A stretch of 37,767 nt of DNA, from assembly GCA_031270285.1 (NCBI GenBank), contig JAISXY010000086.1:1-37767 (forward strand). The letters run 5' to 3'. The position numbers and the translations under genes were made by a program. This DNA is from Campylobacteraceae bacterium (lineage in GTDB: Bacteria > Campylobacterota > Campylobacteria > Campylobacterales > Campylobacteraceae). The notes beneath the pieces were generated by a model, which saw nothing but the letters and a program-made list of their open reading frames with translations, did not search any database and was not told where the DNA came from. Below are positions 2-37,656 of this stretch, one piece after another; positions within the stretch are counted from its first letter, which is position 1, and each line of letters starts with the position of its first letter.

Positions 2-2617
2 TCGTATGAGCCGAAAAAGATAGAAGATAACTATTATAAAATCTGGGAAAGCAGAGGATATTTTGAGCTTGAAGGCAATAAAAATATACAAAAAAAAGAT
101 AAAAATTTCTCTATCATGATGCCGCCTCCCAATGTAACGGGAAGCCTTCATATAGGACATGCGCTGACTTTCACGCTTCAAGATATATTGACGCGCTATA
201 AAAGAATGGACGGATATAAAACTCTCTGGCAGCCCGGCGTTGATCATGCGGGAATTGCCACTCAAAATGTAGTTGAAAAACAGCTTTTGAAAGATGGGAT
301 TAAAAAAGAGGAGCTTGGGAGAGAAAAGTTTTTGCAAAAAGTGTGGGAGTGGAAAAATTACAGCGGCGGCGAAATAACAAAGCAATTGCGTAAACTCGGA
401 GCAAGTCCCGCATGGAGCAGAGAACGATTTACGATGGACGACGGGCTGAAAAGCGCTGTAAGAAAAGCTTTTGTAACTCTTTATGATGAGGGGTTGATAG
501 TACGCGGAAACTACATGGTAAACTGGTGCACGCATGACGGCGCTCTTAGCGATATAGAGGTTGAATACGAAGAGCATAAGGGAAAACTCTACTACTTAAA
601 ATACTTTTTCAAAAATTCCGACAAATATTTGACAGTCGCTACGACAAGACCCGAAACATTTTTCGGCGATAGTGCGGTCATGGTAAATCCAGACGATGAG
701 AGATACAAACATTATATCGGCAAAAGCGTTGTTTTGCCGATCATAGGGCGCGAGATAAAAGTTATAGCGGACTCTCATGTAGATAAAGAGTTTGGCTCGG
801 GCTGCGTTAAAGTAACTCCAGCACACGATATAAACGACTATGAAGTGGGTAAACGGCATAATCTTGAATTTATAACTATATTTGACGAAAATGGTATTTT
901 AAACAGTGAGTGCGGAAGATTTGAAGGAAAAGAGAGGCTAAAAGCAAGAGATGAGATAGTAAGCGTCTTGCAAAAAAGCGGAAATATAGAAAAAATAGAA
1001 GATTATATCAATCAAGTCGGACACTGCTACAGATGCAAAAATGTAGTTGAACCTTATATCTCAAAACAGTGGTTTGTCAAAAAAGAGATAGCCAAAGGCG
1101 CGATAGAAAAAGTAAATAACTCTCTTGTCAAATTCCACCCTTCCCATTGGGTAAACTCATACAATGCATGGATGAAAGAGTTAAAAGACTGGTGCATCTC
1201 AAGACAGCTTTGGTGGGGACACAGAATACCCGTATTTTACTGCAATGAGTGCGGCAATGAGTGGGCGGACACAGAAGAGAGTCCAAGCGAATGCCCACAA
1301 TGCAAATCCAAAAATTTCTATCAAGATCCCGATGTTCTTGATACATGGTTTAGCTCCGGACTTTGGTCTTTTTCAACGCTTGGATGGGAAAACGGCGCTC
1401 ATGAAAATGAGAAATTCAACAAGAGCGATTTAAAGGATTTTTATCCTAACTCTATTTTGATTACGGGGTTTGATATTCTGTTTTTCTGGGTTGCCAGAAT
1501 GATGTTTTCGGGCGAACATTTTATGAAAGAGCTGCCGTTTCGCGATATATATCTGCATGCGTTAGTACGCGATGAATTTGGTCAAAAGATGAGTAAATCA
1601 AAAGGTAACGTCATAGACCCGCTTGATATGATAAATGAGTTCAGCGCCGATACTTTGCGCTTTACGCTGGCGGTTTTGGCGGTTCAAGGAAGAGATATAA
1701 AACTTAGCCGCGACAGACTTGAACAGATGAGAAACTTCACAAATAAACTCTTCAACGCTTCAAGATTTTTACTCTTAAACGAAAAAAGCTTTAAAGATTT
1801 AAACGATACAAAGGTAGAGACAAAACTTGGGCTCTACATGAAAAGCCGTTTAAGCGCAGCGACAAAAGAGGTGAGAGATTATATAGAAAATTACAGATTT
1901 AACGATGCCGCCACAACTCTTTACCGCTTTTTGTGGGGAGAATTTTGCGATTGGGGTATAGAGCTTGCCAAAGCGCAAAAAGAGGCTGTAAGCGAACTTG
2001 GAGCGGTTTTCAAAGAGGCTATGAAACTTTTGCACCCTTTTATGCCTTTCATTTCAGAGCATCTTTATCAAGAACTCGGCAATTCGTCGCTTGAGACAAG
2101 CGAATCCATCATGGTCAAGGAATATCCTGCCATATCGGCGCAAAACAAAGAGATAGAAGAGACTTTTTCGCTTGTTATAGAGGCTATCGTCGGGATACGC
2201 CGCGCTAAAGCCACGCTTGATATTGCGGGAGTCATACCGAAAGCCGCCGTAAAACTTGAAAACCGAACGTTTGACGAAACATTTTCGCCTTTTATCAAAC
2301 TGCTTGCAAAAGTAGAAAATATAACTTTCACAAAAACAAATGTAGAAAACGCCGTACGCGATGTGGGCGACAATCTGGAAGTTTTCATACCTCTTGAAAA
2401 TGTGGATTTGACCCCGCTCATACAAAGACTAAATGCTCAAAAATTAAAGCTTGAAAAAGAGATATTTAAACTTGAAAACATGCTAAATAACGAAAAATTT
2501 ACGGCAAATGCTCCAAAAGAGGTAGTTTTACAAAATAAAACCGCATTAAACGACGCAAAATCCAAACTTTCAAAAGTTGACGATGAGTTAAATACGCTCT
2601 CAAAGGCTGCAAATTGA
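2..2617 (+). CDS. valS: Valine--tRNA ligase (5' end outside window)
   Basis: Class I aminoacyl-tRNA synthetase that charges tRNA-Val in the cytoplasm. The reading frame is open from base 2, so only the first few codons lie outside the window; the ATG at 116 is internal because the upstream frame already reads a normal ValRS N-terminus ([16 protein letters not shown]). The HIGH signature is seen as SLHIGHA and the KMSKS loop as [10 protein letters not shown] CxxC-type zinc insertion (CNECG...CPQCK) and the C-terminal charged coiled-coil arm (about the last 70 residues) are present, so the gene looks intact and of family-typical length. Its stop codon TGA overlaps the TTG start of the next gene, so metN may be translationally coupled to it. 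Confidence 0.97.
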
Positions 2618-3573
2618 TAGAAATATCAAATCTCGGCAAATATTTCGGAAGCAGTAAAATACTCCATGATATCACTTTAAAAATAGAGCAAAATGAGATA
2701 TTTGCGATAGTAGGACACAGCGGGGCCGGCAAATCAACACTGCTTCGCTGCATAAACGGACTTGAAAAATACAACGAGGGAGAGTTAAAGGTATTTGGCA
2801 AAGAGATAAGCAAAATGAGCGAAGATGAACTTCGGTATCTGCGCAAAGATATAGGAATGATTTTTCAGCACTTCTCTTTGTTGGAACAAAAAAATGTATA
2901 TCAAAATGTAGCTCTTCCCATGCAGCTTTGGGGATATAAAAAAAGTGAAATAGACGAAAAAACCGAAGAGCTTTTGACGCTTGTGGGACTTATTCATAAA
3001 AAAAATTCTTATCCGAAAGCCTTAAGCGGCGGTGAAAAACAGAGAGTCGCAATTGCCAGAGCTTTAACATTAAATCCCAAAATCCTTTTAAGCGATGAGG
3101 CTACAAGTGCGCTTGACCCAAAAACCACGCTGTCCATACTGGAACTTTTAAAAACTATCAATAAAACGCTTGGTATCACTGTAGTTTTGGTAACTCATGA
3201 GATGAGCGTTGTTAAAAATGCGGCAAAAAGGGCTCTTCTTTTGGAACATGGGGAGATTATAGGATTTGGCGATATAGAGTCCTTGTTTTTAAAGCCTGAT
3301 GAGAAGATGAGAAAATTTTTAGGCGAAGAGGATATACTGCCAAATTATGGAGTAAATATAAGACTTTACTTTCCGAGCACAATATCGGATAAAGCGATAG
3401 TTACGGCTATGGCAAGAGAGCTTGATACGGACTTTAATATAGTCTGGGGAAGACTTGAGAAGTTGGGAGAAAAAGTGGTTGGCTCGCTTGTTATTAATAT
3501 AAGTGAAACGCAGATTGAACTTGTCAAAGAGTATCTAAAAACAAAACCTGAAGTTATATGGGAGGAACTTTAA
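2614..3573 (+). CDS. metN: Methionine ABC transporter ATP-binding protein MetN
   Basis: Cytoplasmic ATPase of a MetNIQ-type importer for methionine. Walker A is GHSGAGKST (about residue 34), the signature is LSGGEKQR, and Walker B with D-loop reads [13 protein letters not shown]. The roughly 80 C-terminal residues after the ATPase core match the NIL/ACT-like regulatory domain that binds methionine in MetN and gives substrate feedback inhibition. The TTG start overlaps the valS stop by 4 nt and the stop overlaps the next ATG, so the order metN-metI-metQ is one operon. Assignment to methionine rather than another substrate rests on the NIL-like domain and the adjacent MetI/MetQ homologues. Confidence 0.92.
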
Positions 3574-6773: not shown

Positions 6774-8177
6774 ATGAAAAAAGTTTTAATCATAGCAGAC
6801 GGTATTTTAGCAAAACATTTTTTAGAAAGAGTTGTTAGTGTTGCAAGCGACAACAATGAATATACTATTGTTTACTATAAAAAGAAAACATTAAGCGGCA
6901 TGGCATTTCCCGAAAACTTCAAAATCTACTCTTTTGATCCCACAAGTTTAGAAAAAATGACAGCTATCATGAATAGAGATTATTATCAGGTTATGATAGC
7001 GGTCGGCAAAAAAATAGACGCTTTAGGCTCATACAAAATAGTAAGACAGTTTGACAAAAAAGTATTGATTTATCTTGTAGATAAATGGGGACTTGATATT
7101 GAGGATAAATATACAAGAGTTATAAACTCACGCAAAATAGTAGCTTTCAGACTTACGGATTTTGTACCGAATACGCCTATATTTGCGCAAAATATAGGAC
7201 TTGCTACAGGCGAAGTAATGGACATACAAGTACCTGTGGGAAGCTCTTATGTTTATAGACATATAGGCAATATTGAACAAAAAAAATGGCACATAGCGGC
7301 GCTTTATAGAAACAATACGCTTCTTCTGCCAAAACCCAGCCTCATGATACAGCCAAACGATAACCTCCTTATAGTGGGCGCTCCCGATGTACTGCAAGAT
7401 GTATATAAAAGTATAAAAAAAGAGCTTGGACAGTTTCCTCACCCGTTTGGCAGCAATATCTACTGTCTGATAGATATGAAAAATATGAACGATGAAAGAA
7501 TAGAGGCGCTGCTTGCAAATGCGCGTTTACTGCATGAAAAATTAAATTCCAAAAAGCTTTATATAAAAGTTATAAATCCGACTTACTCACCCATGTTTAA
7601 TAATATCAAAAATCTTGCTTCTAATGAGATAGATATTACGGCGGATTATTATAATTTTTCGCCTGAAAATATATATATAGATGATGTGAGCCGCTTAAAT
7701 ATCGGTCTTTGCGTCGTGGATAAATCTTTTTTTAAAACTAATATAAAAACGCTTTTTAAATCCCAAACGCCGATATTCAAAACAGGCAGCATCAAGCCGG
7801 AAAAGATAAAAAGAGGGGTCGTATTCAGCGGCAATACGGACGACATAGAGAAGCACTCATCGGTTATATTTGACATCTCGTCGCAGCTTGAGTTAAATGT
7901 GCAGTTTTATGATTTTGATCCTGAAAATGAAAGACAAGAGCTTGCGGAACATTTTGAAAATATCGCTAAAATATATGGAGAGCAGATAGAGATTATAAAA
8001 AACGGCGACAAAAATCCCATATTTGAACTTAAAAACGATGATGATATACTGCAGTTTATACCATTTTACGAATCTTTTACAAAATCAAAAATAGCCTCTA
8101 TATTTTCCGAAGATTTAAATCATATCTATTTTATTTTAAACGATAAATATCAGCTTTTTTTACCGATTTTGGAGTAA
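6774..8177 (+). CDS. TrkA-like (COG3400-type) putative potassium channel/NAD-binding protein
   Basis: Cytoplasmic protein of 467 aa. The N-terminal part starts with a Rossmann-like beta strand ([19 protein letters not shown]) resembling TrkA-N/RCK domains, though without a clean GxGxxG. Residues around 150-225 ([17 protein letters not shown] ... [21 protein letters not shown]) match the TrkA-C (RCK_C) pattern, a ligand-binding module of potassium transport regulators. The C-terminal half is not recognised by eye. No transmembrane segments are visible, so it would work with a separate membrane partner. In Campylobacterota a gene of this type often sits between tgt and aroB, as here. Substrate and partner are not known. 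Confidence 0.7.
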
Positions 8178-25967: not shown

Positions 25968-25982
25968 TCTCTGTCTCAGAGA
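25968..25982. repeat. Short perfect hairpin at the distal array end
   Basis: TCTCTG (25968-25973), loop TCT, CAGAGA (25977-25982). It lies at the 3' end of the minus-strand array transcript and overlaps the start of the degenerate terminal repeat. Confidence 0.6.
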
Positions 25983-28406
25983 ATGGATAGTAGAAATTGA
26001 GATAAGAGTCTAGACATTATAAGTGGATTAATCAAGACCCTCTCAATCTACAAGAGTAGAAATTAAAAAGAGTCTAGACTTCAGGGGAATAGAGTTGGTT
26101 CGCCAATCAATATCTACAAAAGAGTAGAAATTAAAAAGAGTCTAGACTCGTAGCGGCTTAATCCTCCTCTTCAAAATCTACAAAAGAGTAGAAATTAAAA
26201 AGAGTCTAGACGATCTAGGTGATTGCCAAACCTTTCTATTATCTACAAAAGAGTAGAAATTAAAAAGAGTCTAGACTAGAGGAGAGCGGCGATGAATGAG
26301 AAAATCTACAAAAGAGTAGAAATTAAAAAGAGTCTAGACAATAAAGCGTACTATAAGCACGCACCGCCATCTACAAAAGAGTAGAAATTAAAAAGAGTCT
26401 AGACTAAAATTTGTAATTACTTCAGGCTGCAGATGTATCTACAAAAGAGTAGAAATTAAAAAGAGTCTAGACCAGTCATGTATTCATTAGGTATATACTT
26501 ATCTACAAAAGAGTAGAAATTAAAAAGAGTCTAGACAAAGGGCATTAAAGGAGTTATTTTTACTCTTATCTACAAAAGTAGAAATTGGAATAAGAGTCTA
26601 GACCCTCTTTTTTAAGGTAATTTAAGAGCTTATCTACAAAAGTAGAAATTGGAATAAGAGTCTAGACAAAATAATTTTTGTTTCGGAGGTCAATTATCTA
26701 CAAAAGTAGAAATTGGAATAAGAGTCTAGACCACGCCACACGATAATCAAGAAGATTGTTATCTACAAAAGTAGAAATTGGAATAAGAGTCTAGACCTGC
26801 GACATCTACCGCGGCTGAATACTTATCTACAAAAGTAGAAATTGGAATAAGAGTCTAGACTGATACAAAAGATGCCGACGTAGGACAAATCTACAAAAGT
26901 AGAAATTGGAATAAGAGTCTAGACATAATGAGGGATTGGAGACTGTACTCAAATCTACAAAAGTAGAAATTGGAATAAGAGTCTAGACCATGAAAGAATA
27001 TATTAATGCTGAAAAATCTACAAAAGTAGAAATTGGAATAAGAGTCTAGACCGGAGATAAAGAAACAACGCAGGAGATAATCTACAAAAGTAGAAATTGG
27101 AATAAGAGTCTAGACCGCGGCAACGGCTATCTATATGCTCTTAATCTACAAAAGTAGAAATTGGAATAAGAGTCTAGACTTATTTTGTAAAACGACATTT
27201 TATTTGATCTACAAAAGTAGAAATTGGAATAAGAGTCTAGACTTTAGGAATAAACTTACAAATATACCTGATCTACAAAAGTAGAAATTGGAATAAGAGT
27301 CTAGACATGTAGAATACCAAAAGGCATGGAAAACACATCTACAAAAGTAGAAATTGGAATAAGAGTCTAGACTTGCGTTACTTCCTATTGCGGACGGCAT
27401 ATATCTACAAAAGTAGAAATTGGAATAAGAGTCTAGACAAAGCCGTTATGGAAATGAAACCGTTTATCTACAAAAGTAGAAATTGGAATAAGAGTCTAGA
27501 CTTACCCGCATACTTTGTGTGTTGTTCTAATCTACAAAAGTAGAAATTGGAATAAGAGTCTAGACATGACAATATTTTCATTTATACAAATAGCATCTAC
27601 AAAAGTAGAAATTGGAATAAGAGTCTAGACCTTTTTCTTTCCGTTTTCTCCCTCCCCATCTACAAAAGTAGAAATTGGAATAAGAGTCTAGACCTCTATA
27701 TTGCGGCGTTCCCGCCAACTCTAATCTACAAAAGTAGAAATTGGAATAAGAGTCTAGACATCAGAATTAAACTTTAAGGAGATAAAATCTACAAAAGTAG
27801 AAATTGGAATAAGAGTCTAGACACAATGTAAAAGAAGACCAAAGGCATCTTATCTACAAAAGTAGAAATTGGAATAAGAGTCTAGACTTCTGCTGGATCA
27901 TAATTTATACCCTTATATCTACAAAAGTAGAAATTGGAATAAGAGTCTAGACATGGAAAAGTGATGAGGTTGTTTTAGAGACATCTACAAAAGTAGAAAT
28001 TGGAATAAGAGTCTAGACAATTAGCAAAGCAGACAAGAGATATAAATCTACAAAAGTAGAAATTGGAATAAGAGTCTAGACTTTCCCGCCACGCCGTTAC
28101 TCCAAGCTCATCTACAAAAGTAGAAATTGGAATAAGAGTCTAGACCCCCAGGGTCAGTTATCTGTTTTGATTTTGATCTACAAAAGTAGAAATTGGAATA
28201 AGAGTCTAGACTCCTGAATTTGTTAAAAAACTTGAGGATAATCTACAAAAGTAGAAATTGGAATAAGAGTCTAGACTGCAACGTATATCTCGTCGCATAG
28301 CTCAAGATCTACAAAAGTAGAAATTGGAATAAGAGTCTAGACTCTATCTCAAAGATAGCCAATCTTTCACATCTACAAAAGTAGAAATTGGAATAAGAGT
28401 CTAGAC
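25980..28406 (-). CRISPR. Type V-A CRISPR array, about 38 repeats of two classes
   Basis: Repeats of 36 nt alternate with spacers of 27-32 nt. Read on the minus strand each repeat ends in a Cas12a handle (AATTTCTAC, loop, GTAGAT), so crRNAs are made from the minus strand and the leader is at the high-coordinate end. Counting from the leader there are 29 repeats (28406 down to 26568) with loop TTTT and ATTCC before AATTTC. Then follow 8 repeats (26536 down to 26046) with loop TCTTTT and TTT before AATTTC; the last of these is 34 nt. The final repeat, at 25980-26015, is degenerate: it keeps the 5' half but has lost GTAGAT, so it marks the old end. This gives 37 spacers. No spacer target was recognised by eye. 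Confidence 0.98.
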
Positions 28407-28586
28407 TCTACTTGGTAATTATAGCATTCAAAATGCCTATTTTTCAATATGTTTTTAGTTTTTTTTAAAAACATATTTATTCCCCCTATATATTAAGAGT
28501 TTGACATTGGTATGCTAAAGAACCGATTTTATCATCATATAATACAGTTTGTTAAAAAAATATAAAAAAATTAAGACTCACCTTTG
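28407..28586 (-). promoter_or_regulatory. CRISPR leader with array promoter
   Basis: AT-rich 180-bp gap between the cas2 stop and the first repeat. A perfect TATAAT (minus strand, 28423 to 28418) with an upstream TGC extension lies 11 bp before the first repeat, so transcription should begin just ahead of it. A GCATT/AATGC inverted repeat (28424-28436) abuts the -10 box. A 10-bp perfect inverted repeat ATATGTTTTT/AAAAACATAT spans 28447-28476. These are candidate binding or structural elements for transcription or for leader-end spacer integration. Confidence 0.75.
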
Positions 28587-28862
28587 CTATGTAAAAAACA
28601 GTAACTCTTTGTCTCTGTGTATAGCATTTCCATATTTGACAGCCTTTTTTTCATCAGTCTCAAATATAAAAACGCTGTCTTCTCCGCCAAATTGCTTGGC
28701 AAATACAGTCTCTATCTTAATTTTTAAGATATCCATAACTCTCTTTGAATTATTGATTTCAAAAACAGAATACTGCAGTCTTATGCCGCCATATTTTTCG
28801 AGTGTTTTTGAAAATTTATTTCTTAACTTATCATTTGAGATGTCATAACTTACAACAAGCAC
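28587..28862 (-). CDS. cas2: CRISPR-associated endoribonuclease-like protein Cas2
   Basis: Small ferredoxin-fold subunit of the Cas1-Cas2 spacer integrase. It opens with the typical first strand LVVSYDISNDKLRNKFSKTLEKYGGIRLQYSVFE, containing the conserved Asp near residue 7. The length of 91 aa is normal. The start is GTG at 28862, after an in-frame stop four codons upstream, and AGG precedes it. It follows cas1 after 9 nt and is the last gene before the leader, so it belongs to the cas12a operon. Confidence 0.95.
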   Translation of the reverse strand: MLVVSYDISNDKLRNKFSKTLEKYGGIRLQYSVFEINNSKRVMDILKIKIETVFAKQFGGEDSVFIFETDEKKAVKYGNAIHRDKELLFFT

Positions 28863-28871
28863 AATATCAAC

Positions 28872-29849
28872 CTATTCAACTAAAAATTGAGGATATTTTA
28901 ACAAGTCATTTTGTTGCATAAAACAGCGATAAAACTTGCGCATATAATTAAATATTTCTATTTTTTGCTCGATCAATACATCATAGAACATTTTAGTATA
29001 ATCACTATTTTTTTCACGTTTTAAAATATATTCATTTTTAAAAAGATTAAAATCTTCTATTTTGCACTGTTTGGTATTGAAAGCTTTGCGAACCTGCTTG
29101 TCTATAATGCATCGAAAAGGCTCTACCAAGTCACATATTAGCGATTTACGCTTAAACCAAAGTTGATGATAAACGCCTTTATACGGGTCAAATCCAAATA
29201 AACGGACAAATACTTCAATAAAGTTAAATAAAATAGTATAGCCGATGTCAAGAGTTGCATTTATCGGGTCTATCTTTGTTCTGGGTGAGCGGTTTTTCCA
29301 ATTAAACGGTTCAAAATAAATAGAGAAAAACAGTGTCGCAGCTTTTCCTTCCAGCCCCATGACGGTATCATAATTTGGTGCGCTTGGAATTAAAGACAAT
29401 ATAGCGCTGCATTGCTCTTTTGTCTTTTTCATATCGCTTGTTTTTAAGCGCGTTTTTTCTAACAAAATCAGTTGATTTTTTATCTTGTTTATTACCAGTA
29501 TTTTAGGGATTTGTAAATTTTCTTTATTGTATTCATACTGTTTTTTGCGCAATAAAAAATTAGCTTCAGCCGTAATAGAAAAGAAAAAAACAGGTCTTAA
29601 GTTTTGCTTCATGACGACAAGCGATATTCCGTATCTGGTGCATTTATCAATTAATGGAGTCGTAACAGTTACAGGTCCTATGATAAACAGCGCTAGTATT
29701 TTCTGAAATGGCAGTTTTGTCAGTGTCTTTTTTTCTTCAATATTTTCAAGCAACAATTCACCGTTTGCAACTCGTAATGATTTGTCTTTGATGCAGTTTA
29801 TGACAAAGATAGAACGGTATTTTATATCTTTATGTGTAAACATTTTCAA
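28872..29849 (-). CDS. cas1: CRISPR-associated integrase Cas1
   Basis: Metal-dependent integrase that inserts spacers at the leader end. The N-terminal beta domain is followed by the all-helical catalytic domain. Catalytic residues are visible as the Glu in VMGLEGKAATLFF, the His in KGVYHQLWFKRKSL, and Asp/Glu in CDLVEPFRCIID. The length of 325 aa is normal for type V-A Cas1. Its start lies inside the end of cas4 (20-nt overlap), so adaptation genes are translationally linked. Together with cas4 and cas2 it forms a full adaptation module. Confidence 0.97.
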   Translation of the reverse strand: MKMFTHKDIKYRSIFVINCIKDKSLRVANGELLLENIEEKKTLTKLPFQKILALFIIGPVTVTTPLIDKCTRYGISLVVMKQNLRPVFFFSITAEANFLLRKKQYEYNKENLQIPKILVINKIKNQLILLEKTRLKTSDMKKTKEQCSAILSLIPSAPNYDTVMGLEGKAATLFFSIYFEPFNWKNRSPRTKIDPINATLDIGYTILFNFIEVFVRLFGFDPYKGVYHQLWFKRKSLICDLVEPFRCIIDKQVRKAFNTKQCKIEDFNLFKNEYILKREKNSDYTKMFYDVLIEQKIEIFNYMRKFYRCFMQQNDLLKYPQFLVE

Positions 29850-30396
29850 TATCCACTTTGTCGCATAAAGCGCAATAGATACAGTGAGTGCATTTATTTG
29901 TATTTATATCTACGGGCTGTTCGGGATTGAATTGTTTAAATCTTAAAATAAAATCCTGCAACTCTTTTTTATCTGCTTTATTTGGAATTGTTACGGGGAA
30001 AGTTTTATTGGTCGCAATGGCATAAAAAGCTAACTTTCCAACCTCATATCCCATCTCAATCATACAAAAATACTCTGCCCAAAGTTGATAGATTTGACCT
30101 TGATAAATTGCGTTTAGCTGATATTTGCGCTCTATGAGCAGTTTTTCGTTACATTTATAAATGTCAATTTTCCCCACAATGCCAAGCTCATTTGAATATA
30201 CCGACATTCCCATTATTTCATCTTTTCTGGTACTGTATTTTTTCTCATCAATGCTTTCATGAGCAACCCTGCCGCGTGTTTGAGGAACGGCATGTACGAG
30301 CTCCTCATCTCCACCCATATATACATTGTGCAGATATATAGAATACGGACAAAAAATGAAATCATTCAGAGTTGAGATGGTTATCAGGTTGTGCAT
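29830..30396 (-). CDS. cas4: CRISPR-associated exonuclease Cas4
   Basis: RecB-family iron-sulfur nuclease that trims prespacers and selects those with a PAM. An N-terminal Cys is in FIFCPYSIYLHN. The nuclease core shows GRVAHESID, GIVGKIDIYKC with the metal Asp, and LLIERKYQ with Glu and Lys, then QLWAEYFCM (QhxxY-like). The C-terminal cluster is KCTHCIYCALC. At 188 aa it is of usual size. Its ATG begins immediately after the stop of the second effector. Its presence implies that new spacers are chosen for the 5' T-rich PAM used by Cas12a. Confidence 0.95.
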   Translation of the reverse strand: MHNLITISTLNDFIFCPYSIYLHNVYMGGDEELVHAVPQTRGRVAHESIDEKKYSTRKDEIMGMSVYSNELGIVGKIDIYKCNEKLLIERKYQLNAIYQGQIYQLWAEYFCMIEMGYEVGKLAFYAIATNKTFPVTIPNKADKKELQDFILRFKQFNPEQPVDINTNKCTHCIYCALCDKVDIENVYT

Positions 30397-33300
30397 TCAG
30401 TTTCTTTCATTCATAAAATTTTGAAATCCTCTTTTAGCAATATTAAATGCGGCAATTCCATCATTCGAGTGCATAATGCTAATGCTACTGAAAGTACAAT
30501 TTTGATTTTCGCATATAAAAATTTTTTTCTTTTTGTTTTCTAAAATTTTGTTTTTATCTTTATTCTTTTCTCCACAAATAGGACATTCTTGACTTGTACC
30601 AGCTTGGCTGACAAATCCAATATTTCCCAATCTCATAATTTTGTTTTTGTCATTATCGTCAATACCTTCACCTCTAACAGAAAGTAAGTTTTTAATTGGC
30701 GGCACTAATCCATAATTTTGAAACTTTTGATACAATCCCCATTCAAGCATTCTATAAATATTTCCCTGAAAAAGCTTCAAGTCATTTTCTGTTTTTTGCG
30801 TATCAAACCCTTCTTTTATAATTAGTCCATCACCACCCAGTATTGATTTATAGTGTTTATAAAGAAAGTCGATAACGCCTATTGCATTGGAAACAATAGC
30901 TTTTCTTAAATGATTAATTTTAAGAGACAATTTTTCATTTGTAATCTCTCTCTTGACATTATATCGTTCCAATCTTTCTTTTATCTGCTCCTGCTCTATT
31001 AGATACTTAAAATATATTCTATTTCTCAATACTTCTTTGATTTCACTCAAGTGATCAGCTATGAAAACAAGGGCAAAAAAATTAAATCCTTCTTTTTCAT
31101 TATTATATTTTTTATCTTCTTTTCTGTTTTTATTTATTTCATCTATTTCGTCTTCTGTAAGTTCTAATCCACTTTTGATTATAATTTTTTGAGCGGTTTC
31201 TTCTTTAATATGATCATTTAACTCATAAATAATTTTTTGAGCATCCATAAGTTTTAAAGATAGAAAGCTGCTTATATCACCATTGGTTACAATATTACCG
31301 TTAATAATTTTTGCCATTGTTAAATCAATAGTCAGCAAAGAGCCTTCTTTAAAATATTTGTTTTTCACTTCGTCATATTCTAATGTTGTAGTTTTAAATG
31401 TTTTTACAAAAAATTCTTTATTGAGAAAATAGGAAGGATTTTTAATAATTTTATACTCCTTATCATTCCTATATTTTGAAAATCCTAATCCTCCTTCTGT
31501 AATAGTTAATACAGGAAATTTATGTTTTGTGGTTTCCAAGTTAGATATTTTATCTTGGTTTGAGATACTTTCATGTGTTTTAAATTCAGGTATATATACG
31601 CACAGAGAAGATAATTCTACGATTCCATTGTCGATACCAATAATAAATTTAATATCATCCTTTTTTATATTTTCATTGAAACTATCAATTTGTTTTTTAA
31701 ATTCATCCTGCTCTATAAATGAGATATTTTTTGTTGGCAAATTACTATTTTCAGAAATTGTAGTAATTAATGTATATTGCGGATCACGATATCTATTCTT
31801 CTTTTTTGCATCATACAACTCACTTTCTTTACCATATTTTTTTACTCTGCTTTCTTTTGCATCACGCCAAGAGATTGTAATCTCTGGATTTAATCGCACA
31901 TTAAAGCCATTTTGCTCATTTTCATTTTCCCAAAATGATTTCCATAATTTCGTATGAGTTTTTAAGTTAATTTTTTCTTTATTTTTCAAATCTAAACTTG
32001 CTATTTCAAAAATTTGTGCATCGTATGTTGATTGCATTTTTTGTATAATATCATTTTCATAAATTACTTTTCTGCGGTAACATATTTTTTCAAGGGCAAT
32101 CGCAAAATCTTCTAAACTATTAAAATCATGATTTAGTACTTCATTTTGCAATTGTTCAAAAGGTAGATTTAAAACTTTTTTAGCATAATTACTATCTAAA
32201 ACATCTTTATAGAATTTGATTTTTTTCTCCTCCGTTTTTAATTCATATTCACCTTGAAGGAATTTGTTGTTGCTAAAATACTGATATTTTGTTCCTTTAA
32301 ATTCCTCTTCTATTTTAAGATAAAATTCATTTGTCTTAATCTTGTTTTCTACATATCCAAAACAAAGTTTACGCAAACTACGCAATGTAAGTGATTCAAA
32401 CCAATATGCTTTTTTATTACCTTCGTCATTTTGTTTGTTGATAATAAAGTCTCTACATTCTTTAGCTTTATTGTTTTCTTTTGGAATAAGTATGAGCAGA
32501 TGTTTATTTTCCTCTTCGGCAATGACAGCCCAATATTTTAACTGTTGGGATTCTACGCTCTCTTTTTCTATTCCTTTTATAAGAGTTAAGATTATGCCAT
32601 GCTTATGAGCGACATTTCCATAAAAATTACAAAATGATTTATATCCAATAAACTGCTGTTTTGTACTTTTATCGGCACCATTGATCGCCTTTCCTCTTTT
32701 TTGTTTTAACTCTTCCATTTCACTTTTTAATTGCCTTTTATACTCCTCGCTATTAGACAAATCTCTCTTGGTTGCTTTTTCTGTTATTTCTTGAGTTATA
32801 TTTTTATATGTTTCAAACTCATTTTTTGAAATATTTTCAAAGAGATACAACTTATGATTATTTTTCAAATTATCATAACTGAAATTTTCCTTCTGCATCA
32901 ATTCATTAAAAGTTTTTTTCTGTACTGACTTAATATTTTTTAAAATTTGCCTCAAAGATACAGTATTATCATTACTAAAATTGGGTGTATCTCCTAATAA
33001 TAATGTTTTGTCCTGCACAATATATTTAATATCGTCTATTACACATTCAATTATTTTTTGATTATTTGTTGTTATATTAAAATAAGAAGTTAATTTTTGA
33101 ATGTTGATTATTAAATTTCCCTTTTGTTTCTTTATTTCTTTTCCAAAATCAACAGCATTTTTAAAAATCGTGTAATAGTTAAAACTTGCTTTTACTAAAG
33201 GAAAGCCATTTGATTGAGATGGAAGATACCTTTTTAATCCTGTTTCCAGCATGGATTCAATTTTTTCTTTAATATTTTTAAGTTGCAAACTCAATACCTC

Positions 33301-33840
33301 AATTTCGCTTTTATCGTTGCTATTATCAACAAAAGACGAAATAAATGGAAAATTATTTCTTGCAAACATTTTTTTAATTAGCAATCCAATAGCAGAATGT
33401 TTTGATAAATTGTGTTCATTTTCATTCGCTTTTTCAGTTAGCAATTGAACTAATTCTTCAAATCTTTCAAACCATTTTTTTATTAACTCGTTCATCTCTT
33501 TAATTGTTCCAATGCTAAATTCTCTAATTTTGTTATCTATTTGCATACTCTTATAGTAAGTATCTTGAGCATATAACCTTATCCATGATTTTTTTATATA
33601 GATAGTTTTCTTTAGTTTATTCGTGATTTTGTCATTTTTATCCTTGCAATACAAATATTCCTTTAATCGTGGAATGAACTTATGGCATTCTGTTACAAAA
33701 ATATAAAGATCAAAATCTTGTTCCTTTTTTAGATTTTCTACTTGTTTTTCTAATTTTTTAATGGACTCTTCTTTATCATAATCCAACTTGAACCGAATAG
33801 TTTTTGTTATCTTATACTTTTCCAACCTTTTTCTCCTCAT
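30397..33840 (-). CDS. cas12a2: Second Cas12 effector, Cas12a2 (Cms1)-like nuclease
   Basis: Large crRNA-guided nuclease of 1147 aa, next to cas12a. The N-terminus YKITKTIRFKL matches the Cas12a start, and a wedge-like segment (KTHTKLWKSFW ... FNVRLNPEITISWRDAKES) aligns with HTLYWKSLFS ... LNGQAEIFFREKS in the neighbouring Cas12a. RuvC residues are D737 (IIGIDNG), E1010 (LIIKEGFD) and D1127 (HSNDGIAAFNIAKRG). Before RuvC-III is a zinc ribbon C1086-x2-C1089-x20-C1110-x4-C1115, with no Cas12a Nuc domain. This matches Cas12a2, which is activated by RNA targets and then cuts RNA and DNA indiscriminately, causing abortive infection. The ATG overlaps the cas12a stop (ATGA). A TTG at codon 6 preceded by AGGAG is an alternative start. 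RNA triggering here is inferred from the family. Confidence 0.87.
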   Translation of the reverse strand: MRRKRLEKYKITKTIRFKLDYDKEESIKKLEKQVENLKKEQDFDLYIFVTECHKFIPRLKEYLYCKDKNDKITNKLKKTIYIKKSWIRLYAQDTYYKSMQIDNKIREFSIGTIKEMNELIKKWFERFEELVQLLTEKANENEHNLSKHSAIGLLIKKMFARNNFPFISSFVDNSNDKSEIEVLSLQLKNIKEKIESMLETGLKRYLPSQSNGFPLVKASFNYYTIFKNAVDFGKEIKKQKGNLIINIQKLTSYFNITTNNQKIIECVIDDIKYIVQDKTLLLGDTPNFSNDNTVSLRQILKNIKSVQKKTFNELMQKENFSYDNLKNNHKLYLFENISKNEFETYKNITQEITEKATKRDLSNSEEYKRQLKSEMEELKQKRGKAINGADKSTKQQFIGYKSFCNFYGNVAHKHGIILTLIKGIEKESVESQQLKYWAVIAEEENKHLLILIPKENNKAKECRDFIINKQNDEGNKKAYWFESLTLRSLRKLCFGYVENKIKTNEFYLKIEEEFKGTKYQYFSNNKFLQGEYELKTEEKKIKFYKDVLDSNYAKKVLNLPFEQLQNEVLNHDFNSLEDFAIALEKICYRRKVIYENDIIQKMQSTYDAQIFEIASLDLKNKEKINLKTHTKLWKSFWENENEQNGFNVRLNPEITISWRDAKESRVKKYGKESELYDAKKKNRYRDPQYTLITTISENSNLPTKNISFIEQDEFKKQIDSFNENIKKDDIKFIIGIDNGIVELSSLCVYIPEFKTHESISNQDKISNLETTKHKFPVLTITEGGLGFSKYRNDKEYKIIKNPSYFLNKEFFVKTFKTTTLEYDEVKNKYFKEGSLLTIDLTMAKIINGNIVTNGDISSFLSLKLMDAQKIIYELNDHIKEETAQKIIIKSGLELTEDEIDEINKNRKEDKKYNNEKEGFNFFALVFIADHLSEIKEVLRNRIYFKYLIEQEQIKERLERYNVKREITNEKLSLKINHLRKAIVSNAIGVIDFLYKHYKSILGGDGLIIKEGFDTQKTENDLKLFQGNIYRMLEWGLYQKFQNYGLVPPIKNLLSVRGEGIDDNDKNKIMRLGNIGFVSQAGTSQECPICGEKNKDKNKILENKKKKIFICENQNCTFSSISIMHSNDGIAAFNIAKRGFQNFMNERN

Positions 33841-36800
33841 TTTTTTATTGCTGTTTTATTTTGAGCATATTGTAGCCATTCTTTATTAGTAACAGCTAAA
33901 TTAACTCTTCTTAAATCATCTGCCTGCTTAATCTGTTCTACTACCAAAAGTCCTTTGCGGGCAATATTGTATGCTCCGTTGGCATCGGCATTATTTGGCA
34001 AACCTGCTTTTTGCTTGCGGCTGTCAAAAAATTCACCGTTAGCATCGGCAACTGGAGAGATAAGGTAATCAATATCTGAATTTTTAATGCTATTGCGTAT
34101 TTGAACCGTGAGTTTAAACAAATATAAAAGCTCTTCAAAAAACTTTTTTTCTGTCCGCTGTAAAATCTTATCTTTTAAATTGTTTTTGTAGTCAATTTTT
34201 CCGTCAAACAGTTTAATAAATTCGTCGCTTAAAATTATCTCCTCATTGTCCCATTTATTATTTTTTTGAGGATTTATAAATGTTTTTATGCGGGAGCTAT
34301 TTGTGCAGATTGTCCAATCAAGGCGCGTCTCTTCCGCCTTTGAGTTAAATTTACGATAATCGTCCACAACAAATTCAAAATAGTTTTTTGTGCCGTTATG
34401 GCGTATATCCGCAAATTTTTCAAAAAACTTTTTTGCACTTTCGACATTTATATAATCAGTATCAAACAAATTTACAAAACCTGTTACAGGGTCAATTTTA
34501 CTCGTATTCCATGCAGGAATATAAAATAAAAATCCGTTTTGCTTTCCAATTGCTTGGAAGCTTTCAAACTTATTGGTTAATTGATAAGCATTCAACAAAC
34601 CGCCTTCCTCTGTCGGAACTTTTTTCTTATCAACCAAATAATTTAATTTATCTATAAGCATTTTTTCAAACTTCTGATAAACTTGTTTTTCAACTTTTTG
34701 TCTGCCGCGCATAAATCCGAAATTTAAATCTTCCAAAACAACAACAGCATCATACTTTATCATCAGCTTAGTGATTTCATATATTGCCTGACTCAGATAA
34801 CCCTCTTTCAGCTCTTTAATATTTTCAATAATTTGCCAGCTTTTTCTTGATTCATCTCTATCATCCTCTTTTTTTTGTAGCAAATCATGATAATTGGTTT
34901 TGCCAATCTCATTTAATGAAGACTGCTCTATAATATTGCCATCCAAATCAATTACGCTCAAATATAACAAGTGTCGTTCGCCGCGGTCAATACCAATAAT
35001 ATGTTTGATATTGCCGTTTTTTATATATTGATTAACTTTTTCATTGATATCTTCATTGCCGATCGCTTTAAAATTCAAAGTAATGGGCACATGAAATTGG
35101 AATTTATCCAAAGCATATCTTTTTTTGGAAATAATCGGGTATTTAAATTTATCTTTTAATTCATCATAATGATGACCTTTTTCCCAAACCTCATCGCTAT
35201 AATTTAATGATTTTTCTCTAAAAAATATCTCTGCCTGCCCGTTTAATTTATACACTACATTTTTTAAATTCTCCTCGCTAAATAAGCTCTTCCAATAAAG
35301 AGTGTGTATATTTGGAGTCCCTTTGCTGTAAGGAGAGAAATCCTTGCTGTAGATTTGGAAGAGATAAATTTTGCCCTCATCAACTAATTGGTTTATGTAA
35401 TTTTCAGAAATATTTTGAAATGTGATTTTATATCCTTGATGCTCTACTTCACGGTAAAATCCACTCAAATCGTTATAACTTGAAGTGTCCGAAAAATGAA
35501 AATCAAATTTTTTCCAATCCTCATGTTTTTCTATGGATGATTTAAAAAAATCTATCAAGGTTCTACAATCGTCAATATCAAAATTATCACCTTTTTTATG
35601 TGTCGCGTTTTTATAATTTTCAATCAACTGCTCGCTTGGTTTAAATTCATCAATTCTGCTTTGCGAAAAAAATACTTTTGGCAGCATCTTATTGGCTCCG
35701 GGCAAAAGTTTATAATCCATCTTTTTATATCCATCGCCGTTTGGAGCATTTTCAAAAACTTTATTATGTTTTTTATCCATGATGGCAAGATAGTATAATC
35801 CGTCTTTGCATAACAAAATACCAGTATTATCTCGTTCTTTGTTTGCATCCCAACCGGCAAGCAGCGTTGAATTTTCAAAGTTTAATTTTATCTTCTTTGT
35901 TAAGTAAGGTTTTTGCGTTACATAATTTCGCACTTTATTGTATAGTGGCGTTATTTTGTCAAGTTCACTCCATAACGCTTCAAATTCAGAATAAAAACGC
36001 ATATCTTTATCGCTCTCGCTGCCTTTACCTAAAAGCGGCTTTACAAACCGCTGCAATTTTTTTAAACTATCCAAAAACTGTTTTATCAAAATGATATTTT
36101 CTTTATCCTGTATAAGGGATTTTTCTTTGGGATAATCCGCATCCAACAGCGTTTGAATTTTTAAATAGTTATCGCCTATCGCATCAAACAGATCCTTGCC
36201 ATTTTCATTTTTATCCAATAATTTAAAATAGTCATGAATCGTCCTGTTTTCCAAGCATTCATTAATAAACGCTATAGAAAAAGAGTCAGCAGATTTTAGT
36301 TTTTTATTGATGCGATCATCATATTTTTCCTGTTTTTCTCTTTGCTTTTTCGGTTTATCATTTATGAGTCTTTTTTTGACAACATCCAATATAATAGAAT
36401 AGTTTCCTAAAAATCTCTGCGAAATGTCAGTCAACCCACCATCGTTGCGTAGATAAATTTTTGACAAATCAAACTCATCTATGTGTAAAAGCAAATCTTT
36501 TAAGGAGTATTCATTTTCAGCGCTTTTATTTAATACATTTGCGGCTATTTCGCGATATGTATTTTTTATACTCTCCAAAACTTCACTGTCATTTGAAAAT
36601 TTTTCGGGCAGCCATGAGATTGTTTTATCTCTATCACTTAATATTTGCTTAAAAAGTTCGGTAAATTTTGGCAGATGGGCAGTTTTGGTGCTTTGGTGTT
36701 GATTGTAAAGATTGATATACTCATTTAAGCCTTGGATTTTTGTGCCGTCACTCAATGTTTTGCCGCCAATAGCAACAGCATTGTAAATTTCTATCTGTCT

Positions 36801-37496
36801 TTGCGTTACAACTTCGCTATAACTCTCAATCTTGAAAAAATCATCAATCTCTTTTAGATGCAAATCCTCTTTAAGATTTTCATAAACTGTTTTTATCTCA
36901 TGTGCTAAAATATCTTTGATTTTTTCAAACACAGCTATATTGCTTATAAATTTCGGCAGATTTTCATGTATCAGCCTATAAGATATAGCGGTTGATTTTT
37001 CCTCTTCGGAGTACATATTTTTTCTATTTTCATTAAATCCAACAAAATAAGTAGTAAAATTTTTAAACTCTTCTACTGTTTTTTTGTCATTTTCATTATC
37101 AACAAATTTAAGCAAATCTTCCTTTATCAACTCTTTACCGAATAATCTGCTTGTATCAAAAGCTTTTGCTATCTGCTTTCGAAGCAATCCTTGTATTTTC
37201 TCAAAAGCTTTTTTCTCTACATCATTTTTGTCTTTAATATAAAAATAGAAACAATACTCTTTCAGATAATCTTCATGAAACCTGAAATTTTGCAGAGATT
37301 TTTCTATAAAATCTTTATGGTATTTGTCAATATTTTTTTTAACCTCCTCATATGCATCGGCTCTGTACTTATCTTGAGCTAGTAGTTTGTTTTGTAAAAT
37401 ATTTTCCAATGTTTTACCTACTGGCTTCAATTCAAACCGAAGCGTCTTTGACAGGGAGTATAGATTTGTAAAATCTTTGAGAGTTTTGCTGTACAT
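33837..37496 (-). CDS. cas12a: CRISPR-associated endonuclease Cas12a (Cpf1)
   Basis: Crispr effector of 1219 aa that processes its own crRNA and cuts dsDNA next to a 5' T-rich PAM. It opens with LYSLSKTLRFELKPVGKTLEN. The PAM-interacting block is YKLLPGANKMLPKVFF (Lys603 is the likely PAM-contacting residue). The wedge contains YKLNGQAEIFFREKSLN and YALDKFQFHVPITLNF, which carries the pre-crRNA processing site. RuvC residues are D837 (IIGIDRGERHLLYLS), E922 (VVVLEDLNFGF) and D1171 (NNADANGAYNIARKG). The Nuc arginine is R1069 (CTNSSRIKTF). All catalytic residues are present, so it should be active. AAAGGA 6 nt upstream fixes the ATG at 37496. It is first in the operon and appears to be under control of a solitary upstream guide. 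Confidence 0.98.
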   Translation of the reverse strand: MYSKTLKDFTNLYSLSKTLRFELKPVGKTLENILQNKLLAQDKYRADAYEEVKKNIDKYHKDFIEKSLQNFRFHEDYLKEYCFYFYIKDKNDVEKKAFEKIQGLLRKQIAKAFDTSRLFGKELIKEDLLKFVDNENDKKTVEEFKNFTTYFVGFNENRKNMYSEEEKSTAISYRLIHENLPKFISNIAVFEKIKDILAHEIKTVYENLKEDLHLKEIDDFFKIESYSEVVTQRQIEIYNAVAIGGKTLSDGTKIQGLNEYINLYNQHQSTKTAHLPKFTELFKQILSDRDKTISWLPEKFSNDSEVLESIKNTYREIAANVLNKSAENEYSLKDLLLHIDEFDLSKIYLRNDGGLTDISQRFLGNYSIILDVVKKRLINDKPKKQREKQEKYDDRINKKLKSADSFSIAFINECLENRTIHDYFKLLDKNENGKDLFDAIGDNYLKIQTLLDADYPKEKSLIQDKENIILIKQFLDSLKKLQRFVKPLLGKGSESDKDMRFYSEFEALWSELDKITPLYNKVRNYVTQKPYLTKKIKLNFENSTLLAGWDANKERDNTGILLCKDGLYYLAIMDKKHNKVFENAPNGDGYKKMDYKLLPGANKMLPKVFFSQSRIDEFKPSEQLIENYKNATHKKGDNFDIDDCRTLIDFFKSSIEKHEDWKKFDFHFSDTSSYNDLSGFYREVEHQGYKITFQNISENYINQLVDEGKIYLFQIYSKDFSPYSKGTPNIHTLYWKSLFSEENLKNVVYKLNGQAEIFFREKSLNYSDEVWEKGHHYDELKDKFKYPIISKKRYALDKFQFHVPITLNFKAIGNEDINEKVNQYIKNGNIKHIIGIDRGERHLLYLSVIDLDGNIIEQSSLNEIGKTNYHDLLQKKEDDRDESRKSWQIIENIKELKEGYLSQAIYEITKLMIKYDAVVVLEDLNFGFMRGRQKVEKQVYQKFEKMLIDKLNYLVDKKKVPTEEGGLLNAYQLTNKFESFQAIGKQNGFLFYIPAWNTSKIDPVTGFVNLFDTDYINVESAKKFFEKFADIRHNGTKNYFEFVVDDYRKFNSKAEETRLDWTICTNSSRIKTFINPQKNNKWDNEEIILSDEFIKLFDGKIDYKNNLKDKILQRTEKKFFEELLYLFKLTVQIRNSIKNSDIDYLISPVADANGEFFDSRKQKAGLPNNADANGAYNIARKGLLVVEQIKQADDLRRVNLAVTNKEWLQYAQNKTAIKK

Positions 37497-37513: not shown

Positions 37514-37533
37514 TAACTCACATAAAAATTATT
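37514..37533 (-). promoter_or_regulatory. cas12a promoter/leader with PAM-flanked target of the solitary guide
   Basis: Reading the minus strand: AATAAT (37533-37528, 5 of 6 to a -10 box), then TTTA (37526-37523), then TGTGAGTTA (37522-37514). The last nine bases are identical to the first nine after the solitary handle upstream, and TTTA is a good Cas12a PAM. Cas12a bound here would cover the predicted transcription start. Confidence 0.6.
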
Positions 37534-37599: not shown

Positions 37600-37644
37600 A
37601 TTTTTTAAATTGCATAACTCACAATCTACAAAAAAGTAGAAATT
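37600..37644 (-). ncRNA. Putative CreR-like solitary guide RNA controlling cas12a
   Basis: A lone crRNA handle on the minus strand, AATTTCTAC (37644-37636), loop TTTTTT, GTAGAT (37629-37624), followed by a spacer-like sequence starting TGTGAGTTATGCAATTT (37623 downward). There is no second repeat. The first nine spacer bases match the cas12a 5' region beside a TTTA PAM (37514-37526); later positions do not match. That pattern of seed-only complementarity is what is known for CreR RNAs, which let Cas effectors repress their own promoter without cutting. The handle differs by one base from the old 6-nt-loop repeats of the array. The 3' end is not defined by the sequence; I stop at about 24 nt of spacer. 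Confidence 0.7.
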
Positions 37645-37650
37645 CCAGTA

Positions 37651-37656
37651 ATTATA
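37651..37656 (-). promoter_or_regulatory. -10 box of the solitary guide RNA
   Basis: TATAAT on the minus strand, with six bases between it and the first base of the handle (37644), so the RNA would start at or just before the handle. The run TATAATTAC is identical to that at the array promoter in the leader (28423 to 28415). Confidence 0.7.

Follow-up and report, generated by a model that had tools for sequence, protein, structure and literature searches.

Two repeat forms of equal length in a type V-A CRISPR array of a Campylobacteraceae bacterium

The window analysed here, a stretch of 37,767 nt from a Campylobacteraceae bacterium (contig JAISXY010000086.1 of assembly GCA_031270285.1), carries a CRISPR array in which the repeats occur in two forms, grouped in separate blocks and differing in the hairpin loop of the crRNA handle as well as in the segment upstream of it. 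The locus thus raises the question of how two forms came to stand in one array and whether they are meant for two different effectors, the genes of which lie nearby. The likely answer is that this is a single leader-polarised V-A array with successive repeat forms of one lineage and not a pair of functional sub-arrays. The process would be ordinary (inheritance of the first repeat under a length ruler), its product unusual (a V-A repeat with a 6-nt loop compensated to 36 nt), and the dual-effector locus that harbors it uncommon.

Organization of the array and its repeats

The array is located on the minus strand and runs from 28406 down to ~25980. The leader (28407–28586, minus strand) ends with ...AAGTAGA at the first repeat. 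This end is common to most sibling arrays of the genus, and the adjoining of the conserved ...GTAGA to the first repeat in most of them places the leader side at 28407 onward. Counted from the leader, the array consists of 29 copies of form A, seven copies of form B, a single copy designated B34 and an A-like remnant, with 37 intact repeats listed (29 A, seven B and the 34-nt B34). The form A block (26568–28406, minus strand) is leader-proximal and younger and is formed by 29 identical 36-nt repeats GTCTAGACTCTTATTCCAATTTCTACTTTTGTAGAT with the composition GTCTAGACTCTT-ATTCC-AATTTCTAC-TTTT-GTAGAT. The form B block (26112–26536, minus strand) is leader-distal and older; its seven identical 36-nt repeats GTCTAGACTCTTTTTAATTTCTACTCTTTTGTAGAT are composed of GTCTAGACTCTT-TTT-AATTTCTAC-TCTTTT-GTAGAT, the 5' part being 2 nt shorter than in A. 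B34 (26046–26079, minus strand), the oldest intact copy, is 34 nt long with the loop TCTT, so that the short 5' part of form B is present and the long loop is absent. The terminal remnant GTCTAGACTCTTATCTCAATTTCTACTATCCATTCT (25980–26015, minus strand) contains the A-like 5-nt element ATCTC and misses the 3' half of the hairpin (GTAGAT). Form B is thereby sandwiched between two A-like forms, block A and the remnant.

The two runs are pure (29 and 8 among 37), for which the probability under random order is 5e-8, and a chance order of the forms is ruled out by this value. Forms A and B are separated by five single-base edits, B and B34 by two, and no A/B hybrid was found among the repeats of the array. 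In the fixed 36-nt frame the shared AATTTCTAC sits 2 nt closer to the leader in B than in A. The earlier note had described two repeat classes in separate blocks, eight old and 29 younger, with compensating 2-nt indels and no intermediates. The observation of two classes is real and partly confirmed, with corrections. The blocks stand for the 29 A and the seven B repeats, each of 36 nt, while the eighth "old" copy is the 34-nt one. The compensation stands insofar as the length of 36 nt is kept; the change from ATTCC to TTT, however, combines the loss of 2 nt with a substitution. The claim that intermediates are lacking has to be withdrawn: the 34-nt copy, within the old block, shows the upstream loss without the gain in the loop.

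The seven identical copies of form B rule out that B is a decayed form A. The first 12 nt, which are lineage-specific, are common to forms A and B and are the same in the repeats of two relatives (G232 and G401), so neither form comes from a foreign array. It is also conceivable that the assembly falsely joined two arrays near 26540, since the draft genome is split into 106 contigs and arrays are difficult to assemble. The A and B blocks have, however, no common string longer than 17 nt, which is far shorter than the repeats shared inside one block, and an erroneous join would thus be expected within either block rather than at the A/B boundary; moreover, block switches recur in independent genomes (see below). 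We therefore regard an assembly artefact as extremely improbable. A join of two arrays in the cell, by recombination between sibling arrays, is possible.

In general appearance the locus resembles the V-A arrays described by Goltsman et al. 2020 (PMC7757703), with which it shares 36-nt repeats, the AAUUUCUAC...GUAGAU handle, V-A cas1, cas2 and cas4 genes and a conserved leader end. The motif given there, UCUAC[N3-5]GUAGAU, has loops of 3–5 nt, mostly of 4 nt (69,117 arrays searched). In the window such a hairpin with a 3–5-nt loop is found in the 29 A copies and in B34. The seven consecutive B copies form the hairpin with a 6-nt loop, outside this range, with the 5' part shorter by the same 2 nt.

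Effector genes and the solitary handle upstream of cas12a

The cas genes are located on the minus strand directly beyond the leader: cas2 (28587–28862), V-A/PREFRAN cas1 (28872–29849; 87–88% identical in G401 and G405), V-A/PREFRAN cas4 (29830–30396), the gene of a second effector (30397–33840), the ORF of which overlaps the cas12a end by 4 nt, and cas12a (33837–37496). Cas12a is matched by TIGR04330 with 1497.6 bits and by PDB Cas12a chains; together with TIGR04328, TIGR04329 and TIGR01573 (V-A PREFRAN cas4 and cas1, cas2), all above cut-off, this identifies the locus as type V-A. No NCBIfam model matched the second effector. Its only matches in PDB are two Cas12a3 entries, 9hlx (E 1.4e-259) and 21we (E 1.7e-258); no Cas12a2 chain appeared up to E 10, and the C-terminal part also aligns with Cas12a3. 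Judging from these alignments, the second effector is Cas12a3, a relative of Ba1Cas12a3, rather than Cas12a2. Cas12a3 is reported as an RNA-triggered effector that cuts the 3' CCA tails of tRNA; the word "repeat" has no occurrence in the main text of that report (PMC12851939). The presence of Cas12a together with an RNA-triggered relative beside one array is reminiscent of the tandem loci in which Cas12a and Cas12a2 share an array (PMC9811890) and of Cas12a3 (PMC12851939). The difference from the tandem loci is the partner, which by sequence is Cas12a3 here.

Cas12a3 is present in one of the 14 genomes of the genus. No relative of it was found in the 13 other genus genomes, in 297 other genomes of the phylum, in genome contigs, in viral contigs or in plasmids, by searches that miss distant relatives, since a relative with 31% identity turned up in contig C82 of G366. 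This relative (380–3439) directly follows a V-A array with 4-nt loops, and elsewhere in this genome, on contig C47, cas12a follows the same repeat, so that the family contains, with G366, a further dual-effector genome. In the nearest relative (G401, contig C20, 1368–5736) cas12a has an internal TAA and the cas4 matches come in two pieces; that locus looks decayed or affected by sequencing errors.

Upstream of cas12a, outside the array, lies a solitary handle AATTTCTACTTTTTTGTAGAT with a 6-nt loop (37624–37644, minus strand), the end of which is 127 nt from the cas12a ATG. The guide starts at 37623 and runs down. The 9 nt at its start, TGTGAGTTA, are found again behind TTTA at 37514–37526 (minus strand; PAM at 37523–37526, seed match at 37514–37522), just upstream of the cas12a ATG. 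The sequence TATAAT (37651–37656) is situated 6 nt upstream of the handle; a simple scan gave no sigma-70-like promoter pair on the strand of the handle and no terminator, and Rfam gave no match in the window. Handles upstream of cas12a were also found in G401, G355, G405 and G403 and not in G397, the cas12a of which is more distant, i.e. in five of the six genomes with a cas12a start. The guide matches the site after TTTA in 9 of 9 positions in four of these five genomes and in 8 of 9 in G401. In G355, G405 and G403 the seed differs and the guide and the site are still identical in all nine positions. Non-cognate pairs of guide and region across genomes reach at most 7, and the observed match was reached by 0, 4, 0, 1 and 0 of 5000 shuffled regions (own genome, G401, G355, G405 and G403, respectively). 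Guide and target thus change together in five of six genomes, although these cases, with seeds that in part share their descent, do not amount to five independent events.

The solitary handle looks like a CreR-like RNA. CreR is described in a review (PMC12737573) as a crRNA-like autorepressor of cas operons of type I and V-A. The likeness consists in a solitary handle upstream of cas12a and in a short seed match with PAM at the cas12a promoter region; the differences are that the operon here also contains the predicted cas12a3 and that the 6-nt handle loop is unlike the current array form. Solitary V-A handles outside annotated genes were also seen in two microviruses, MG945527.1 (~305–318) and MK496734.1 (~306–330), in the latter followed by a hairpin and a T-run. 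With BLAST E of 0.7–3, within chance range, they are candidate RNA anti-CRISPRs, comparable to the V-A Racrs (PMC10651486).

One array common to two different effectors would be compatible with a functional partition, in which the 6-nt-loop B handles and the 4-nt-loop A handles are read differently by Cas12a and Cas12a3. Nothing found ties either loop to Cas12a3, however, and the searches gave no further Cas12a3 locus of which the handle class is known. Relatives without detected Cas12a3 carry handles of the A type genus-wide, and the 6-nt loop of the CreR-like RNA suggests that Cas12a accepts 6-nt loops. The A and B handles fold into the same 5-bp hairpin (-4.8 and -5.0 kcal/mol; no fold was obtained for the terminal remnant at 25980–26015), and spacer lengths are not clearly different between the blocks (p = 0.19). 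The spacer targets do not help here: there was no match above chance among the loci compared and nothing convincing in phages or plasmids. Cas12a2 is reported to tolerate Cas12a repeats, which were swapped between the nucleases, and the loop is called variable there (PMC9811890). Such a partition is very improbable in our opinion, and probably both A and B yield crRNAs usable by Cas12a and Cas12a3.

We also considered that loop length acts as a dial. With form B at the head of the array, crRNAs and the 6-nt-loop CreR-like RNA would have competed for effectors with similar handles. The switch to the 4-nt form A would then have altered this competition, and perhaps the shares of crRNA going to Cas12a and Cas12a3, resetting the expression of the dual-effector operon. 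We consider this course of events quite improbable. With one array carrying two handle forms, a third handle on the CreR-like RNA and two effectors that are very unlike each other, the locus lends itself to a joint test of loop length and guide loading.

Repeat length in Campylobacterota

The length of 36 nt is found in 206 of 208 repeats from 12 Campylobacterota genomes, the window counted in; the two exceptions are B34 and one degenerate 39-nt match in G320. Since repeats were detected with handle arms tolerant of substitutions and not of indels, some decayed copies would be missed in this count. Outside the window, 170 of 171 repeats have a 5' part of 17 nt followed by a handle of 19 nt, the loop of which is 4 nt long. 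A loop of 5–8 nt followed by another repeat occurs only in the own genome, one of the 153 genomes of the family. Form B was absent from every other genome searched. In IMG/VR no array was found in which two neighboring repeats had loops of 6 nt or of 5 nt, a result that says little, with only two contigs having the 4-nt kind; a looser scan for single handles returned apparent chance hits only.

The solitary handles upstream of cas12a have loops of 6 nt (own genome), 4 nt (G401, G355 and G405) and 7 nt (G403). Loop length is thus variable in these handles, which are neither copied nor measured by the integrase, while the only departure from the 4-nt loop in an array, form B, is offset by a shorter 5' part. 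The solitary handles may serve as an internal control for the length ruler, few as they are (n = 5). In F. novicida a change of 1–3 nt in either direction in the middle of the repeat was reported to cut full-site integration by V-A Cas1-Cas2 drastically in vitro; the terminal TCTA motifs matter, and the mid-repeat sequence is rather negligible (PMC13034035). The proposal that length is held by the integrase while the inside of the repeat is free to vary is supported by these integration data, by the constancy of 36 nt in the arrays and by the loops of 4–7 nt in handles outside them. Part of the constancy may be owed to common descent and not to an active constraint.

Succession of repeat forms in the array and in its relatives

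At each acquisition the Cas1-Cas2 integrase copies the first repeat. A change in the first repeat would thereby be inherited by all later copies and be seen as a block. The integrase is expected to read the ends of the repeat and to measure its total length, so that only 36-nt forms are copied well; this ruler is in print for F. novicida (PMC13034035), and we infer it here. The middle of the repeat, including the hairpin loop, would be free to vary as long as the Cas12a-type handle folds.

In our preferred reading of a single array with successive forms, an A-like form would first have lost 2 nt upstream, a stage of which the 34-nt copy may be a fossil. Two nucleotides would then have been regained in the T-rich loop, giving form B, of which seven copies were laid down. 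Finally the first repeat would have been replaced by form A, most likely by recombination with a sibling array that had the same leader and the same first 12 nt. Several points speak against this reading. B34 is off-length and may equally be the later decay of a B copy, form B was met in none of the other genomes searched, and the passage from B to A requires five edits at once, with neither a hybrid repeat nor a donor array at hand: no second array was found in the own genome (91% complete, 106 contigs). If the reading is right, nature has recorded in this array an experiment that is otherwise made in vitro, in which the integrase keeps the 36 nt and the segment that the effector reads moves within them.

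The arrays of the genus with at least five repeats (n = 10: the window, L028, L065, L072, L059, L060, L061, L062, L063 and L066) were compared in this respect. As counted by eye from the repeat table, contiguous blocks with at least two copies per side are present in five of the ten (the window, L059, L061, L062 and L066), and block switching is therefore not unusual but common in this genus. Steps with at least two simultaneous changes, also counted by eye, occur in three of the ten (the window; L062, with four substitutions; L066, with two). Several genomes have 2–3 arrays with near-identical leaders (G401, G405), which provide material for inter-array recombination, although none was caught in the act among these genomes.

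Alternatively, without any recombination between arrays, the first repeat could have mutated step by step, and the repeat-spacer units that carried the intermediates could later have been deleted. A path of loss and subsequent gain is in keeping with the 34-nt copy, and the array on contig C28 of G405 (L059) exhibits single-step block changes with visible intermediates. Against this stands the return from B to an A-like form: five edits would be needed, and they would have to bring back the 5-nt element together with the 4-nt loop, as these are seen in all the relatives. We find purely stepwise mutation rather unlikely.

Two repeat consensus sequences within one V-A array are also given, in a figure legend, for Lachnospiraceae bacterium ND2006 (PMC6610086); the likeness is by this legend and not by the sequences. 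Another kind of change is seen in an array beside cas genes on contig C55 of G405 (L061, 9358 onward), where AATTTCTACTTTTATAGAT stands in the eight repeats nearest the leader and disrupts the closing base pair of their handle, and the eight older ones are intact; here a stem-weakening change was copied forward. In a single V-A array on contig C3 of G287 (L037) one spacer occurs twice, at 7570 and 7696, a sign of intra-array duplication or rearrangement. At the leader-distal end, most terminal repeats (L028, L060, L062, L071, L072 and others) stop after AATTTCTAC, without the GTAGAT half. Such truncation would be expected if the making of an extra crRNA is selected against (PMC6610086). Terminal repeats of V-A arrays were reported there to be mutated in 11 of 14 cases, and the terminal remnant of the window is mutated likewise.
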